33,426 nt of DNA, taken from NCBI GenBank assembly GCA_026386845.1, contig JAPLMW010000064.1:1-33426 (forward strand), written 5' to 3'. Shown one piece after another: positions 3,526 to 32,447 of this stretch. The DNA is from Phycisphaerae bacterium. Lineage in GTDB: Bacteria; Planctomycetota; Phycisphaerae; Sedimentisphaerales; UBA12454. The notes under the pieces were generated by a model. It was not told where the DNA came from and made no database searches. It saw nothing but the letters and a program-made list of their open reading frames with translations. The translations under genes and the position numbers were made by a program. Every line of letters starts with the position of its first letter. Position 1 is the first letter of the stretch.

Positions 3526-3620
3526 GGCCGGGTCCCAGGCAAATTGCGTGCGTGAACTTGGTCAGACGCGGAAGCGAGCAGCCATAAGCGATAATGCGGT
3601 TGTGCTTAGCAAACCCGGCC
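3526..3620 (+). ncRNA. ffs: Small bacterial signal recognition particle RNA (4.5S type)
   Basis: The conserved SRP domain IV core is present: GGTCAG, four bases, a GGAA tetraloop, four bases, then GCAGCC (about 3560-3584), which matches the family order in detail (stem ACGC/GCGA around GGAA). The ends GGCCGGGT (3526-3533) and ACCCGGCC (3613-3620) pair to close a rod of 95 nt, the size of small bacterial SRP RNAs. The RNA binds Ffh and directs membrane and secreted proteins to the translocon. It is next to dnaX, a common neighbour in bacteria, but divergent from it. Boundaries are from the terminal helix and could differ by a few bases. Confidence 0.88.
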
Positions 3621-3692
3621 GCCTTTTGACGAGCCTCGCCGGCAAAGAGAGTTTTTGGCGGGTTGCCTATTAAAAATGTTCAGGGGAAAGTT

Positions 3693-4697: not shown

Positions 4698-5054
4698 TTA
4701 AAATCTCCTTGTTAAGGATTTCAGTATTAATATAATCTTAAGCGAAGAAACGAAAATTTGCAAACTGTTAAATTTTAGTCACAGATACCGCTTCTTACCA
4801 CGAAGAACACGAAGGGCACGAAGAAGATTAGACACGGAACTACACGGATTTGCACTGTTAATTGCTTTAAGGCATCCCTTCGGGATTGTAAAAATTTAAA
4901 CAAAATCCTCTTTCAAGCAAACTTGAGACGGATTTAGTGTTTGAACTTTTTTATCGCTGCGCGATTGCGCCTTAAAGCTAACCATAAAAATATTACAGTT
5001 GAGGTTGAAAAGAAAAAGAGATAGAATTTTATACACTCTTAAGGGAGGTCGAAA
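4698..5054. other. Spacer with dispersed and tandem short repeats
   Basis: No convincing gene in 357 bp. It holds three 9-bp units CACGAAGAA/CACGAAGGG/CACGAAGAA (4799-4825), followed by ACACGGAACTACACGGATTT-like sequence, and a shortened copy of the dispersed repeat (TAAGGCATCCCTTCGGGA, 4868-4885). Similar CACGAA-type sequence in reverse orientation lies at about 1470-1530. A possible promoter for the next gene is TTGAAA (5005-5010), 18 bp, TTATAC (5029-5034), at low confidence. Confidence 0.6.
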
Positions 5055-24428: not shown

Positions 24429-24848
24429 ATGGTTCCGCAAATTCTGGCTTCCGGTGCATGGGTCGGCATTGCACCATTTGTAATGATTATTGCAATAGTT
24501 GCGATAGTGGGCTGGTATCTTCTGAACAAAAAACGCCTTGAGCACCAGCAGATTCTTGCGGCAATTGAAAAAGGTATTCCACTATCTGAACTAAGACCTG
24601 TCGTGAAAAAAGGAGCCGACTGGATAATAAGCCTGACTGCAGGAGTTGCTTTCCTGCTAATGGGCATAGGAATGGCAATCGTTTCATTAATTTACTTTTG
24701 TGGAGGGGCCAGCTTCGGATTATTAATGCCCTCCATCGTGTTTTTTGCGATTGGTACAGCCGGAATTATTCGCGGAATCCTGCTGCGAAAAGCTGAAAAG
24801 GCATTATCCGCAGACGAATCAGCCCTTGACGCAAATCAGGGGCAGTAG
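24429..24848 (+). CDS. Two-pass membrane protein, DUF6249-like
   Basis: A 139-residue protein from ATG 24429 (GGA six to nine bases before; an in-frame ATG at 24414 gives five more residues). Three hydrophobic stretches are seen: FVMIIAIVAIVGWYLL, IISLTAGVAFLLMGIGMAIVSLIYF and LLMPSIVFFAIGTAGIIRGILL. A KKRLEHQQILAAIEKGIPLSEL segment between the first two resembles the DUF6249 core (family assignment by eye). Same operon as the lipoprotein. Its 3' end overlaps the convergent rtcB gene by 30 bp. Confidence 0.65.
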   Translation: MVPQILASGAWVGIAPFVMIIAIVAIVGWYLLNKKRLEHQQILAAIEKGIPLSELRPVVKKGADWIISLTAGVAFLLMGIGMAIVSLIYFCGGASFGLLMPSIVFFAIGTAGIIRGILLRKAEKALSADESALDANQGQ

Positions 24849-26249
24849 CTTTGCGACCTTTTTCGCAAGGCCGGCGTTTGCCGTCGCCTCGACAACGGCG
24901 CTGACATTCTTATACGCATCCGGGGCCTCCTCTGCGAGGCCCCGCATTGACTTTGATTTTATTATTATCTTCCGCTGGGCAAGCTCTCTGACAATCTGAC
25001 TGCCCTGCCATTTTTTCGTCGCTGCCGTCCTGCTCATACTTCTGCCAGCCCCGTGGCAGGCAGAGCTGAAAGCAAGAGATTCGCTTACAACCGTGCCGGC
25101 AAGGATATACGAAGATGTTCCCATTGTGCCGCCGATTAAAACAGGCTGACCAAAAGCCTGGTAGCAGGCAGGTAAATCGCTGCTGGCCGGCCCAAAAGAC
25201 CTTGTAGCCCCCTTGCGATGTATAAGCAAATTTTTACTTTTGCCGTTTACCTTATGCTCCTCCATTTTCGCGGTGTTATGGCTCACGTCATAGAGCATTT
25301 TCAATTGTGCCTTTGGGAAAATGCCTGAAAAAACACGCCTGACAAGCTCGGTTAAAATCTGCCTGTTGGCAAGTGCGCAATTAATGCCCGACCTCATCGC
25401 GCCAAGATAATCCTGACCCGACGGACTATTCACAGGCACCGATGCAAGTTCCCTGTCGGGAAGGTCAATGCCAAAACTTGCTGCCTGTGAGGCCATTTCC
25501 CTTAGATAATCAGTTCCTATCTGATGGCCGAGGCCGCGGGAGCCGCAATGGACGCTTACTAAACAATCGCCTTTCTTCAACCCGAAGCCTTCGGCAATCT
25601 GCTGGTCATAGATATCAACAACCTTCTGGACTTCGAGGTAATGATTGCCTGAGCCGAGCGTGCCCATTTGTTCCCGCTGTCTTTTTTTTGCCTGCGGCGA
25701 AACCTTCGATGGGTTAGCGCCTTTCGCGCAGCCGCCTTCTTCGATAAAATCCAAATCCTCTTTTGTGCCGAAACCTTTTTCAACCGCCCAGACCGCGCCG
25801 CCCGACAGCATACTATCAAGCTGGGCAGTGCTTAATGTTATATCGCCCGTGCTGCCGACGCCTGCAGGGATATCGCGAAAAAGAGACTCGGCAAGTTTTT
25901 CTTTAACGGCGGTTATATCATCTTCGGACAAACCTGTATGAAATGTCCTCACACCGCAGGCGATATCGTACCCAACGCCCCCGCCGGATATTACACCGCC
26001 GGCCTCGGGGTCAAACGCTGCAACGCCGCCGATTGGAAAACCATAACCCATATGAGCATCCGGCATTGCGAACGACGCTTTGACTATCCCCGGCAGGCAG
26101 GCAACATTGCAGACCTGCGATAAAGTCTTTTCATCAATATCGTTTATGAGATTACCATCGGCAAAAATTACGCCCGGCACCTTCATTTTGCCGAAAGGCT
26201 CAACTTGCCAGATATTCTCAGAAACTCGTTTTAACGCAGGCTTTGCCAT
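24819..26249 (-). CDS. rtcB: RNA-splicing ligase RtcB
   Basis: A 476-residue Mn/GTP-dependent ligase that joins 2',3'-cyclic-phosphate ends to 5'-OH ends of RNA. Landmarks: MPDAHMGYGFPIGGVAAFDP, GGVGYDIACGVR (metal-binding Asp and Cys), LGSGNHYLEV, VSVHCGSRGLGHQIG, YDVSHNTAK, IHRKGATRSFGP and CHGAGRSMSRTAA, all as in the family. It is the third gene of the ahcY-archease-rtcB unit; the gap to the archease is about 100 bp, A+T-rich with short repeat-like sequence. ATG at 26249 with a weak site. Its last 30 bp overlap the convergent membrane-protein gene. Confidence 0.95.
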   Translation of the reverse strand: MAKPALKRVSENIWQVEPFGKMKVPGVIFADGNLINDIDEKTLSQVCNVACLPGIVKASFAMPDAHMGYGFPIGGVAAFDPEAGGVISGGGVGYDIACGVRTFHTGLSEDDITAVKEKLAESLFRDIPAGVGSTGDITLSTAQLDSMLSGGAVWAVEKGFGTKEDLDFIEEGGCAKGANPSKVSPQAKKRQREQMGTLGSGNHYLEVQKVVDIYDQQIAEGFGLKKGDCLVSVHCGSRGLGHQIGTDYLREMASQAASFGIDLPDRELASVPVNSPSGQDYLGAMRSGINCALANRQILTELVRRVFSGIFPKAQLKMLYDVSHNTAKMEEHKVNGKSKNLLIHRKGATRSFGPASSDLPACYQAFGQPVLIGGTMGTSSYILAGTVVSESLAFSSACHGAGRSMSRTAATKKWQGSQIVRELAQRKIIIKSKSMRGLAEEAPDAYKNVSAVVEATANAGLAKKVAKLLPLICVKG

Positions 26250-26763: not shown

Positions 26764-28218
<1,455 letters not shown>

Positions 28219-28306
28219 TTACCTATTTTAAACTCCTATAATTTGACATAAATATAAACAAAAATCGCTTTTTATGCAAGCATTCAAAAATCGCAGGACT
28301 ATTTGC

Positions 28307-28335
28307 TTGACATAAAAGGGATATTTTGATATACT
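28307..28335 (+). promoter_or_regulatory. Strong sigma-70 type promoter of the trp operon
   Basis: TTGACA (28307-28312), 17-bp spacer, TATACT (28330-28335). The transcript should start near 28342, giving a leader of about 200 nt before trpE. Confidence 0.85.
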
Positions 28336-28348
28336 TTACACTGATAAT

Positions 28349-28426
28349 ATGGCTCAGAATCATTTTAACTATCGTTTTGGTTGTCCGCTAAGGGATGCCT
28401 TAGGGCAGTGGTGGCCTGTTAGATAA
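28349..28426 (+). CDS. trpL: Candidate trp leader peptide with tandem Trp codons
   Basis: A 25-codon ORF beginning MAQNHFNYRF and ending GQWWPVR, stop TAA at 28424-28426. Codons 21-22 are TGG TGG (28409-28414). The ATG is only about 7 nt from the predicted transcript start and has no ribosome site, so initiation may be leaderless. A stalled ribosome at the Trp codons would cover the first of four pairing segments that follow and end in a terminator. This is the classic layout of ribosome-mediated trp attenuation. Part of the ORF is a 19-bp dispersed repeat (28384-28402). Translation is not proven. Confidence 0.8.
   Translation: MAQNHFNYRFGCPLRDALGQWWPVR
28384..28402 (+). repeat. 19-bp dispersed repeat, copy in trp leader ORF
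   Basis: TCCGCTAAGGGATGCCTTA, read here as PLRDAL. Identical to the dnaX coding strand at 2105-2123 but in a different frame. Confidence 0.85.
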
Positions 28427-28504
28427 CTGACAGGTTGTGAGCCTTAGTACACCTAAAAACTTAAATAATATATAAATTCACGGCCTGTCGGTAGCGACAG
28501 GCCG
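28412..28504 (+). promoter_or_regulatory. Attenuator segments 1 to 4
   Basis: Segment 1 GGCCTGT (28413-28419), segment 2 GACAGG (28429-28434), segment 3 CGGCCTGTCG (28481-28490), segment 4 CGACAGGCCG (28495-28504). Segments 1 and 3 are alike, as are 2 and 4, so 1:2 with 3:4 (termination) and 2:3 (read-through) are mutually exclusive. Confidence 0.75.
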
Positions 28505-28511
28505 TTTTTTT
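28481..28511 (+). terminator. Attenuation terminator before trpE
   Basis: 10-bp perfect stem CGGCCTGTCG/CGACAGGCCG with a GTAG loop, followed by seven T (28505-28511). It lies 30 bp before trpE, so it must be bypassed to express the operon. Confidence 0.92.
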
Positions 28512-28540
28512 ATGTATATTATGTAGTTTACGAGAAAATT

Positions 28541-30145
28541 ATGACGGAATTAAACCAGAAAATTTACGAGGCAAAAACAGGGCAGATTATTCCGCTTGTC
28601 AGGCAGATTGATATTGCCGAGCCGGTCGATTTCTTCGCGAAATTAAGCGATTACGGCAGAAAACAGCACTGCTGCCTGCTCGAATCAAAAGACCATCTGG
28701 CACAGGCCGGCCAGGGTGAATTGACATTCGGCACGGCAAACCCGGCTCTGTATCTGTCCGGCAAAGATGCCGATTTTCAAATCGTTGCGCTAAGCCCGAC
28801 CGGAAAAAGAATGATAAAATATTTTTCAACAACCGCTCGCGAAAGGTTTAACTTCTGTAAAAAAATAAATTTTGAAGAAGAAAAAATTATAGGAAAACTT
28901 AATCTCGACCACGATATCATTGATGAACAATCCCGACTAAAAGCCGTAAACCAGATGAATGTTATCAGGGCTGTCAATTTCGCCTTTGAGCTTTCGGGTA
29001 AACCTTTCCGCGTAACCTGCGGTCTTCTGGGCGCGATAAGCTACGACTTTATCGACCAGTTTGAAAAACTCCCGCCAAATAAATCCGCCCTGCTTGATGT
29101 GCCGGACTACGAAATGTATTTCGCGGACAATATCTTTCTGATGGACCACAAAACCGGCGACGCCTTCGTAATTGTAAACGCCATAATAACCGATGGCGAC
29201 AGAGAGAAAATTGCGGCGGATGTGGAAAATTGTTTCGATTACTATTTCAGAACCGCCAAAGCCCCGCTGCCAAACAAGCAAAAATACACCGGCCCCCTGC
29301 CTAAGGGCAGCACAGATACCGAGCAGCCTGAATATGAAAATATGGTTCGGACCGCACAAAAGCACATCGTTGACGGCGATATCTTTCAGGTTGTTCCCAG
29401 CAGGACAATCATAGAGCCTTGTCCTGATGAGCCGCTCGATGTCTATAAAAGACTCAGGCAGCTTAATCCTTCACCTTATATGTTTTATCTTAATACGCCC
29501 AGCACAATCCTGACCGGTGCAAGTCCTGAATTAAATCTGCGGGTAAGCGGAACAAAAAATCGTCAGGTTGAAATCAGGCCAATCGCTGGAACAAAGCCTC
29601 GCGGCAGAGTCAACGGAAAAATCGACCCCGATACCGATTTCAGATATGAAGCGGAATTGAAGCTCGACCATAAGGAGCTTGCGGAGCATATGATGCTTGT
29701 CGATTTGGCCAGGAATGATATTGCCCGTGTTGCTAAAAAAGGCTCGCGCGTGGTTACCGAACTGCTGGTCGCTGAAAAATACGAATCTGTAATGCATCTG
29801 GTAAGCAACGTCAAAGGAACTCTCAGCGACGAGCTTGACGCGTTAAGCGCATATCTTGCGACAATGAATATGGGTACGCTTACAGGCGCGCCGAAAATCG
29901 AGGCGATGAAAATTATCCGCCTGCTCGAAAAAAATAAACGCGGCTACTATGGCGGAGCGGTAATGTATCTGACCGTTGACGGACAATTCGACAGCTGCAT
30001 AACAATTCGCGCATTGCAGGTAAAAGACCACGTCGCCTACATCAGGGCCGGAGGCGGAGTCGTTTATGACAGCGTGCCAAAAATGGAATTTGAGGAAACC
30101 CAGCACAAGGCAAATTCCTGCTTAAAAGCGGTAAGAGGAATATGA
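28541..30145 (+). CDS. trpE: Anthranilate synthase component I
   Basis: A 534-residue enzyme forming anthranilate from chorismate with ammonia from TrpG. LLES (46-49) near the N-terminus is the tryptophan feedback site of the family. The chorismate-binding core has DIFQVVPSRTI, YMFYLNTPSTILTGASPE, RPIAGTKPRGR, ELAEHMMLVDLARNDIARV, MGTLTGAPKIEAMKII and IRAGGGVVYDSVPKMEFEE. First structural gene behind the attenuator. ATG at 28541 follows an A+T-rich stretch without a strong site. It ends in an ATGA overlap with trpG. Confidence 0.97.
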   Translation: MTELNQKIYEAKTGQIIPLVRQIDIAEPVDFFAKLSDYGRKQHCCLLESKDHLAQAGQGELTFGTANPALYLSGKDADFQIVALSPTGKRMIKYFSTTARERFNFCKKINFEEEKIIGKLNLDHDIIDEQSRLKAVNQMNVIRAVNFAFELSGKPFRVTCGLLGAISYDFIDQFEKLPPNKSALLDVPDYEMYFADNIFLMDHKTGDAFVIVNAIITDGDREKIAADVENCFDYYFRTAKAPLPNKQKYTGPLPKGSTDTEQPEYENMVRTAQKHIVDGDIFQVVPSRTIIEPCPDEPLDVYKRLRQLNPSPYMFYLNTPSTILTGASPELNLRVSGTKNRQVEIRPIAGTKPRGRVNGKIDPDTDFRYEAELKLDHKELAEHMMLVDLARNDIARVAKKGSRVVTELLVAEKYESVMHLVSNVKGTLSDELDALSAYLATMNMGTLTGAPKIEAMKIIRLLEKNKRGYYGGAVMYLTVDGQFDSCITIRALQVKDHVAYIRAGGGVVYDSVPKMEFEETQHKANSCLKAVRGI

Positions 30146-30780
30146 CAATGGAAAATAAAAACCCACTCGTGGTGAGCAAAGTCGAACCAAAAGTTTTGTT
30201 TATAGACAATTTCGACTCGTTTACTTACAACCTCGTAGATGATTTTTGCAAAAGAGATTGTGTTGCAAAAGTCTATCGTGCCGATACGCCTTTGGAAAAT
30301 CTTAAAAAAATTGCGGAACAATTCAATCCCGACCTGCTGGTGATTTCGCCCGGCCCCGGCACACCCGCAAATGCAGGTGTTACTATTGAAGCGATTGGTT
30401 ATTTCAAAGACAGACTCCCGATATTCGGCGTATGTCTCGGTCATCAGGCAATCGTCGAGTATTTCGGCGGGGTTGTCAGCCACGCCCCGATGGTTTCACA
30501 CGGAAAGGCCTCGAAAGTAACGCACAACGGCAGGGGAATCTTCGAAGGCGTTGAAAATCCTCTGCAGGCCGGCAGGTATCACAGCCTTTGTGCCGTTAAA
30601 GTGCCGGATTGTCTCGAAGTAACCGCGCAATACGAAAATATCGTGATGGGGATAGAGCACAAACAAAAACCGATTTTCGGCGTGCAGTTTCATCCGGAAA
30701 GTATCCTTACGCCGACAGGCGGAAAAATAATACAGAACCTTTTAAAAATTTCACTGACTAAAAGGAGAGAATCACAATGA
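30142..30780 (+). CDS. trpG: Anthranilate synthase glutamine amidotransferase subunit
   Basis: A 212-residue class I amidotransferase that supplies ammonia to TrpE. VLFIDNFDSFTYNLVD near the start, oxyanion-type ISPGPGTP, nucleophile C98 in GVCLGHQ, and H184 with E186 in VQFHPESI complete the catalytic triad. ATG at 30142 overlaps the trpE stop (ATGA) and sits behind AGAGGA. It ends in another ATGA overlap with trpD. No aminodeoxychorismate partner is near, though such subunits can serve both pathways. Confidence 0.96.
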   Translation: MTMENKNPLVVSKVEPKVLFIDNFDSFTYNLVDDFCKRDCVAKVYRADTPLENLKKIAEQFNPDLLVISPGPGTPANAGVTIEAIGYFKDRLPIFGVCLGHQAIVEYFGGVVSHAPMVSHGKASKVTHNGRGIFEGVENPLQAGRYHSLCAVKVPDCLEVTAQYENIVMGIEHKQKPIFGVQFHPESILTPTGGKIIQNLLKISLTKRRESQ

Positions 30781-31799
30781 CAAAAATAACTGAATATCTT
30801 GAAATCCTTCTCGAAGGCGGCGACCTCAAATACGAGCAGGCAAAAGAGCTGCTGGACACGGTCTTCAAAGGCGAAGTCGCGGAAGTTCAGATTGCAGCGT
30901 TTCTGGCCGCAATGAGAATGAAAAAAGCCACGCCCAGCGAATTCGCGGGACTGGCTCAATCGCTCAGAAACCACGCCGTAAAGGTCAACACTAAAATTAC
31001 CAACCTCATCGACACCTGCGGCACCGGCGGCGCTCCGTTGAAAACTTTTAACGTTTCCACGGCAGCGGCGATTGTGGCCGCAGGCGCAGGCGCTTACGTC
31101 GCAAAGCACGGCAATCGCGGCATCACGAGCAAATGCGGCTCAGCCGATGTGCTCGAAGCCCTCGGCGTTAAAGTCGACTGCCCTGCCGATGTCGTTGCGG
31201 AATGTATTGAAAACGCGCACATAGGCTTTATGTTTGCTCCGCTGTATCACCCGGCAATGAAATTTGTTCAGCCTATAAGAAAAAGTCTCGATTTCCGCAC
31301 TGCCTTTAACATCCTGGGGCCGCTTGCCAACCCGGCCGGTGCGCAGGCTCAGGTAATGGGTGTGCCGGAAGAATCGCTGCTGGACAGAATCGCGGAAACC
31401 TTCAGAATTCTCGGCACAAAACGGGCTATGATTGTGCACGGTGCAGGCCTTGACGAAATAAGCATCACGGCCGTTACAAAGGTAGTTGAGCTTACGGACA
31501 AAAAGAGAATTTCGTATGAAATTCACCCGAAAGATTTTGTAAGTTCTTCGCCGAAAATGGCTGAGCTTGTCGGCAGCAACGCTGAATTCAATGCCAAAAT
31601 GATTAAGGATGTTTTGTATGGCAAAAATAAAGGCGCCGCCAGGGATATGATATTGCTCAACTCCGCCGCCGCGATAATGGTCGCAGGCATCGCTGACGAC
31701 CTGCATTCAGGCGTGAAAAAGGCTGCCGGGGCAATTGACGATGGAGCAGCCGTCCAGTGTCTGGAAAAGCTGATTGAAATTTCTAACAGGAAAAAATAA
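30777..31799 (+). CDS. trpD: Anthranilate phosphoribosyltransferase
   Basis: A 340-residue enzyme joining anthranilate to PRPP. The PRPP loop DTCGTGGAPLKTFNVST and KHGNRGITSKCGSADVLEALG are the family signatures, and NILGPLANPAGAQAQVMGV follows. The ATG at 30777 overlaps the trpG stop as ATGA and has an AAAGGAGAG site inside the end of trpG. Next on the strand, after 12 bp, is trpF; trpC, often between them, is missing. Confidence 0.97.
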   Translation: MTKITEYLEILLEGGDLKYEQAKELLDTVFKGEVAEVQIAAFLAAMRMKKATPSEFAGLAQSLRNHAVKVNTKITNLIDTCGTGGAPLKTFNVSTAAAIVAAGAGAYVAKHGNRGITSKCGSADVLEALGVKVDCPADVVAECIENAHIGFMFAPLYHPAMKFVQPIRKSLDFRTAFNILGPLANPAGAQAQVMGVPEESLLDRIAETFRILGTKRAMIVHGAGLDEISITAVTKVVELTDKKRISYEIHPKDFVSSSPKMAELVGSNAEFNAKMIKDVLYGKNKGAARDMILLNSAAAIMVAGIADDLHSGVKKAAGAIDDGAAVQCLEKLIEISNRKK

Positions 31800-31811
31800 T
31801 TACCTGAATTT

Positions 31812-32447
31812 ATGCTTGGACCAAAAGTTAAAATATGCGGAATAACAAACCTCGATGACGCCGTCAAGGCGACAGAGCTCGGCGCAGACCTGCTCGGCTT
31901 CAATTTCTATCCGCAAAGCCCGCGATATATCGAACCGCAGGAAGTGGAAAAAATTATCGCAAAACTGCCGGCATCCCTTGATATGGTCGGATTATTCGTA
32001 AATGCCGATGCTGATACCATCCGCAAAATCGCGGGCGATTTAATGCTCGACTGGGTGCAGCTTCACGGCGATGAAAGTCCGCAGTTCTGTGCTTTGCTGG
32101 ATAATATGTCCGCTCAAATTATTAAAGCTATAAGAGTAAAAGACGGCAAAGACATCGACTACTTAAAAAACTTCTCCACTGATGCTCTTTTGCTCGATGC
32201 CTATAACCCGTCTCTGTATGGCGGAACAGGTCAGCGTTTCGACTGGAGCACGCTGCCGGAGATTACGGGGTATCTGCTTGGAAAAACATTCCTCGCAGGC
32301 GGAATAAATCCCGAAAATGTTGTCGAAGCTCTCGGCCAGGGATTCTACGGCATTGATATATGCAGCGGCATTGAGGATTCGCCCCGCAAAAAAAATCATA
32401 AAAAAATGGAAGAGCTTTTCAAAAATATAAGAAGTGTTACTGCATAA
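31812..32447 (+). CDS. trpF: Phosphoribosylanthranilate isomerase
   Basis: A 211-residue (beta-alpha)8 enzyme. KVKICGIT with the catalytic Cys, GADLLGFNFYPQSPRYI, VGLFVN, DWVQLHGDES, LLDAY...YGGTGQRFDW with the catalytic Asp, FLAGGINPENV and GIDICSGIEDSP are all in place. ATG at 31812 has a poor ribosome site, so coupling to trpD is likely. It is followed by a 126-bp spacer with a mini-ORF and an inverted repeat before trpB. Confidence 0.96.
   Translation: MLGPKVKICGITNLDDAVKATELGADLLGFNFYPQSPRYIEPQEVEKIIAKLPASLDMVGLFVNADADTIRKIAGDLMLDWVQLHGDESPQFCALLDNMSAQIIKAIRVKDGKDIDYLKNFSTDALLLDAYNPSLYGGTGQRFDWSTLPEITGYLLGKTFLAGGINPENVVEALGQGFYGIDICSGIEDSPRKKNHKKMEELFKNIRSVTA

Follow-up and report, generated by a model that had tools for sequence, protein, structure and literature searches.

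The locus comprises a short leader ORF with two adjacent Trp codons, a promoter ahead of it, an intrinsic terminator between the ORF and trpE, and the genes trpE, trpG, trpD and trpF, which follow in this order (Table 1). It lies in a window (the whole stretch of DNA that was analysed, 33,426 nucleotides) that lies on contig 78 of a 2.4 Mb assembly in 96 contigs. A gene for adenosylhomocysteinase is divergent, on the strand opposite to the trp operon. The genome had been taken for planctomycetal from its sequence, and judged by TrpE its closest named relatives are indeed Planctomycetota MAGs, several of them labelled Sedimentisphaerales or Phycisphaerae. A plasmid search gave no match. Elsewhere in the window there is a bacterial small SRP RNA (3526-3623, Rfam RF00169, 62 bits) and, on the minus strand, a gene for an RtcB-family RNA ligase (24819-26249), whose best match is the intein-containing RtcB model, though far under the cut-off of that model.

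Table 1. Features of the trp leader and operon (window positions)
Feature	Position	Strand	Basis or remark
Promoter TTGACA / 17 nt / TATACT, extended TG	28307-28335	+	Direct sequence reading; -35 at 28307-28312, -10 at 28330-28335 with TG in front
trpL leader ORF, MAQNHFNYRFGCPLRDALGQWWPVR*	28349-28426	+	Read directly; kept in relatives
P0 5' arm GGCTCA	28351-28356	+	Just past AUG; MFE, strong in relatives
24-nt dispersed palindromic repeat	28384-28407	+	In frame inside leader ORF; genome-wide pattern search, relatives' leaders
Regulatory tandem Trp codons TGG TGG	28409-28414	+	Codons 21-22 of the 25-codon leader ORF
Segment 1	28414-28422	+	Pairs with 28427-28435; folding, covariation
Segment 2	28427-28441	+	Partner of segment 1, or of segment 3 as antiterminator
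P0 3' arm TGAGCC	28438-28443	+	Overlaps segment 2; MFE
Segment 3	28477-28491	+	Antiterminator partner; overlaps terminator 5' arm (28480-28490)
Segment 4 (28495-28505) and T7 tail (28505-28511)	28495-28511	+	Terminator 3' part; folding, covariation
trpE, anthranilate synthase component I	28541-30145	+	
trpG, glutamine amidotransferase	30142-30780	+	
trpD, anthranilate phosphoribosyltransferase	30777-31799	+	
trpF, phosphoribosylanthranilate isomerase	31812-32447	+	

Competing helices in the leader

Promoter and leader ORF, with its tandem TGG near the end, had been described in the first-pass annotation and were found as described when the sequence was read directly; the promoter scores 11/12 against the consensus. 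The stop codon of the ORF sits between segments 1 and 2. Folding gave three helices: 1:2 with 9 bp and -11.6 kcal/mol, 2:3, formed by the whole of segments 2 and 3, with 15 bp and -20.1 kcal/mol, and 3:4, in which the terminator 5' arm pairs with segment 4, with 11 bp and -22.5 kcal/mol, seven T residues standing behind it. Because bases are shared, 1:2 excludes 2:3, and 2:3 excludes 3:4. The earlier proposals that the RNA pairs either as 1:2 plus 3:4 or as 2:3, and that a 3:4 stem with a T7 tail precedes trpE, agree with these folds; folding refined the segments, and the antiterminator 2:3, with its 15 bp, is longer than had been thought. The folding energy of the whole leader is 4.6 SD under that of dinucleotide shuffles, none of 200 of which was equally stable.

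Conservation of the leader in relatives

To count conserved features, upstream regions of trpE in named loci were parsed with the requirement for an ATG, a Trp codon, a terminator and, no more than 16 nt away, a promoter-like site, and 76 loci passed. The choice of the leader thus rested partly on terminator and promoter, and an unrestricted promoter check over 100 nt agrees with it. One further locus (L070), where the leader start is masked by N and WWWPAG* is visible, stayed outside the parse and was counted as the 77th; three others (L080, L117, L131) were left out of the count, as they end too near trpE. Families are referred to by the labels of this analysis, f1 to f22, f1 being the family of the window genome.

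In all 76 promoter-readable loci the best promoter within 100 nt upstream has its end 6-11 nt before the leader ATG, so that this ATG would lie a few nt from +1, and the promoter spacer is 17 nt in 75 of the 76 parsed loci. One of 76 loci has a Shine-Dalgarno (SD)-like motif between promoter and leader ATG, and 55 have one before trpE. In the window TATACT ends 13 nt ahead of the ATG, the longest distance in the set, and the 5' UTR would measure about 5-7 nt if transcription starts 6-8 nt after TATACT. Comparison thus gives good support to a predicted leaderless or near-leaderless initiation of the trp leader. The earlier suggestion of leaderless initiation with no ribosome site gained from the promoter spacing and the missing SD motifs in relatives, and was corrected in wording: with 13 nt between TATACT and ATG, near-leaderless is the safer term for the window. 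An alternative is that an enteric-like leader sits on an ordinary leadered transcript, which starts further upstream and is served by a standby or SD-less ribosome site. The long distance in the window speaks for it, as does a weaker promoter-like site at 28214-28242, and the absence of an SD motif is by itself no proof of a leaderless transcript; set against the position of near-consensus promoters in the relatives and their uniform spacer, we regard it as unlikely.

A leader ORF with Trp codons precedes trpE in 77 of the 77 readable named loci. At least two Trp codons are present in 74 of the 76 parsed leaders, the longest run being WWW in 46, WW in 25 and WWWW in one, while four have no adjacent pair. 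When only same-order relatives with a close TrpE are considered, every upstream region examined contained a Trp-containing leader ORF, two of them with a single Trp codon. Single Trp codons are found in the relatives L122 and L135. W-rich leaders also occur in f3 and f4, families in which some genomes have a divergent TrpE; an SD-like sequence accompanies some of these leaders. Outside the W residues the peptide varies between relatives. In no relative examined was a terminator found without a Trp-containing ORF, the combination that would have spoken against the first reading of the locus.

The helices were counted in an alignment of 77 leaders, with slid helices and 500 shuffles as controls. 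Helix 1:2 was paired in 79.2% of cells (26-41% when slid) and had two-sided changes in 5 of 7 pairs, although its outer pairs are poorly kept (30 and 50 unpaired of 76). The corresponding values were 92.7% (22-47%) and 6 of 7 pairs for 2:3, and 94.7% (28-49%) and 7 of 9 pairs for 3:4, which was recovered unaided by RNAalifold. For each of the three helices the covariation score was reached by none of the 500 shuffles; as the sequences are related, such shuffle counts run high, and more weight belongs to the slid controls. By these controls all three helices covary.

The geometry is also kept. The last Trp codon lies 15-24 nt from the segment-2 core in all 77 loci, and with a ribosome covering about 12 nt past the start of the A-site codon, stalling at Trp would leave segment 2 free. 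For the stop codon the distance from the same core is -13 to +9 nt in 75 of the 77, so that a ribosome at the stop would cover segment 2.

These parts, their conservation, the covariation and the stall geometry come from the sequence and its comparison, and we take the element for a ribosome-mediated transcription attenuator of the trpEGDF operon with a probability of roughly 0.93. The enteric-type logic that had been claimed for it is supported by the conserved Trp ORF together with the three covarying helices. A real terminator could instead answer another signal (the TRAP protein, a tRNA in a T-box, or a small molecule in a riboswitch), the ORF being incidental. All systems of this kind have a terminator ahead of a biosynthetic operon, which fits this reading too, whereas an Rfam scan found no T-box, riboswitch or other Rfam element at the leader site, and a W-rich ORF that persists in all readable relatives while other residues change, with its stall geometry preserved, makes it very improbable. 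That a plain intergenic terminator was joined by a chance ORF, short ORFs being common, is refuted for practical purposes by conservation and covariation across the order.

Elements at the leader start and inside the ORF

In relatives, the first leader codons pair with a stretch just 3' of segment 2, forming a further helix, P0. In the group of leaders beginning with M[RKT]Q-like sequences, at least 12 of 13 P0 pairs were found in 24 of 40 loci and at least nine in 34 of 40 (mean with shuffled partners, 11.6), and P0 had p <= 0.05 against mononucleotide shuffles in 49 of 77 loci. It is short in family f1; in the window p was 0.1, with a partner stretch missing two bases of the helix. Since P0 overlaps segment 2, it would compete with 2:3 in the window. 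Helix P0 thus often appears to mask the leader start, and we infer that it may close the start codon. P0, like the dispersed repeat in the ORF and the absence of TrpR, had gone unnoticed in the first-pass annotation.

TrpR (PF01371) was missing from the window genome, as from every genome searched in f1, f2, f5 and f7, and no operator-like palindrome was found near the window leader. The domain was detected in 17 of the 59 genomes searched, all belonging to f3, f4 or f6. The palindrome GTTTCTATNNATAGAAAC, with at most two mismatches, is found on or close to the leader start in all 16 TrpR genomes whose leader was in hand, and it occurs without TrpR in one of 34 genomes (G055, 91% complete). 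Tabulated at four mismatches, TrpR and palindrome gave 16/2/0/32 (Fisher 3e-11, a value overstated by the non-independence of the genomes). In family f6 the leader ATG sits at the centre of the palindrome. In the related families the palindrome at the leader start is a predicted TrpR operator. On or close to leader starts of f3, f4 and f6 (e.g. L022, L027, L032) the palindrome GTTTCTATGNATAGAAAC co-occurs with a TrpR-family gene and, G055 excepted, is lacking where TrpR is.

The 24-nt repeat inside the leader ORF, TCCGCTNNGGGATGCCTTACGGCA, is expanded in the window genome and has further window copies at 2100-2123 and 4868-4884. The pattern TCCGCT(NN)GGGATGCCTTACGGCA occurs in 23 copies in the window genome with at most two mismatches, and a shorter pattern in 22, whereas the reversed pattern has no copies there. 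Some copies lie between genes and others within long ORFs, where more than one frame is used. The leader of G004 carries the repeat at the same spot; those of G008, G009, G006 and others are without it. Set beside the leader of G008 (...FGWWWPVK), the insert interrupts the first of three TGG codons without disturbing the frame, and two TGG remain, so that an insertion of the repeat apparently turned a WWW leader into WW. A single insertion shared by the window genome and G004 was considered and is unsupported, as the TrpE tree does not join the two. Palindromic elements of Rickettsia spread in a comparable manner but are longer (PMC10969869). Other insertions were noticed in the set: the leader of L026 (G034) has a different in-frame insertion, GSFDKLTMN, relative to the close relative G037, and in L013 and L016 an inverted-repeat insertion, ATCCCGTTAGACCTG ... 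CAGGTCTAACGGGAT, lies between attenuator and trpE.

Taken jointly, these elements suggest a tentative and rather doubtful extension, namely a self-limiting leaderless attenuator with P0 as a fourth helix, a TrpR operator at the AUG and retuning by the repeat. P0 would close the start codon once the leader has been made, stopping initiation as well as read-through; TrpR of related families would act at the same start site, through an operator whose centre is the AUG or lies close to it; and a mobile 24-bp palindrome would have entered the leader in frame, reducing three Trp codons to two.

A covariance model of the element matched the window with E = 1.4e-14. Among 248 genomes sampled from the class, 40 that belong to the order had a match at E <= 0.01, which in at least three of them (G019, G020, G025) lies away from trpE, and the model misses some leaders that were found by reading. 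Outside the order but in the same class, G067 is the one case confirmed by eye, having a WWW leader before trpE, MQDTANSTTTRFWWWRTW, with a promoter TTGACA / TAATAC 7 nt before the ATG; it was found from the region upstream of trpE, the model match of this genome being elsewhere. Of the other model matches inspected outside the order, those in G129, G144 and G176 were rejected as trp attenuators, the ORFs around those in G129 and G144 being unlike trpE, and the one in G147 is a possible Leu leader (see below). Among 30 regions upstream of trpE from elsewhere in the class, none had a W-rich leader together with a convincing terminator. A phylum-wide search for a leaderless WW pattern, a narrow one that misses the window genome itself, gave chance-like matches except in G017 and G036, and so no sign of this leader elsewhere in the phylum. 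In family f16 (L145, L154, L155) W.W ORFs without a clear T tail were seen upstream of trpE; perhaps these represent another form of attenuation.

Leucine leaders were met as well. In the window genome a Leu-rich leader ORF, MAKQNQNIKSISTAIILLALLLRP, lies ahead of leuA (L249, G000:C30, 201 nt upstream), and leuA of several relatives has such an ORF too; in f1 these leaders have their promoter 8-10 nt ahead of the ATG and, around the stop codon, a GC-rich hairpin. No T-tailed terminator was seen before leuA in the window genome or its relatives, and in this the locus resembles leuA of Streptomyces lividans, leaderless and without a terminator. In another family of the class a possible Leu-rich leader, MLLSALLLAGTLR, followed by a terminator (L209 of G147, from about 455 onward) precedes an isopropylmalate- or citramalate-synthase-like gene. 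No histidine leader was found before hisG.

Proposed mechanism and known systems

Start of the transcript, translation, stalling and the response to tryptophan are what we infer from these parts. RNA polymerase would start a few nt ahead of the leader AUG, and a ribosome would load at or near the 5' end without an SD sequence. If charged tRNA-Trp is scarce, the ribosome would stall at codons 21-22 and cover segment 1, leaving segment 2 free for its 15-bp pairing with segment 3; no terminator would form and trpE would be transcribed. With ample tryptophan, the ribosome would reach the stop codon and cover segment 2, allowing 3:4 to form and transcription to stop at the T7 tail. If no ribosome is present, 1:2, with P0 over the leader start, would form together with 3:4 and the operon would be off. 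In sum, the attenuator is real, its mechanism is ordinary and it is kept through the order; what is unusual is P0, the TrpR-linked palindrome and the in-frame repeat.

A covarying trp attenuator throughout an order suggests that Planctomycetota use coupled transcription and translation for amino-acid sensing. The order also offers a set for comparison, with a constant attenuator throughout and TrpR in some members but not in others, and the in-frame repeat a natural experiment on the number of Trp codons needed by a leader. In a survey of 2010, Proteobacteria and Actinobacteria were the only groups with known leader-peptide systems, to which it added a histidine case in Firmicutes (PMC2965389). 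The first-pass annotation knew of no described case in planctomycetes; searches of open-access text agree, finding no earlier report of a planctomycete trp attenuator, which is no proof of absence, and as far as found the element is new to Planctomycetota.

In the trpL leader of E. coli and other enteric bacteria, a tandem-Trp leader peptide has its stop codon between segments 1 and 2, and exclusive 1:2, 2:3 and 3:4 helices precede trpE with a U-tailed terminator. Tandem Trp codons, stop position, helix logic and terminator are common to E. coli trpL and the window attenuator. The latter differs in having no match to the Rfam Trp_leader model, neither at the gathering score nor up to E = 10, no SD sequence before the leader ORF, and no TrpR in the genome. 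In Sinorhizobium meliloti, trpL/rnTrpL is a leaderless trp leader mRNA with attenuation but without transcription repression; its peptide is an alphaproteobacterial one of 14 aa, and the terminated RNA and the peptide act in trans there (PMC7298713). The window would share with it the leaderless trp leader mRNA, here a predicted one, and attenuation in the absence of transcription repression. Streptomyces lividans trpL1, MFAHSTRNWWWTAHPAAH, is leaderless and has WWW, two hairpins and a U-rich stretch before trpE; it differs from the window in its peptide, its monocistronic trpE and its host, one of the Actinobacteria (PMC8079986). As both these species have it, a leaderless trp leader in the window would be a trait in common with them and no novelty. 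In the leaderless ilvBNC leader of Corynebacterium glutamicum an upstream hairpin masks the start and acts as an anti-antiterminator (PMC11857589); this hairpin resembles P0 plus 1:2 of the present leader, from which the system differs by its branched-chain amino acid codons and its other arrangement of helices.
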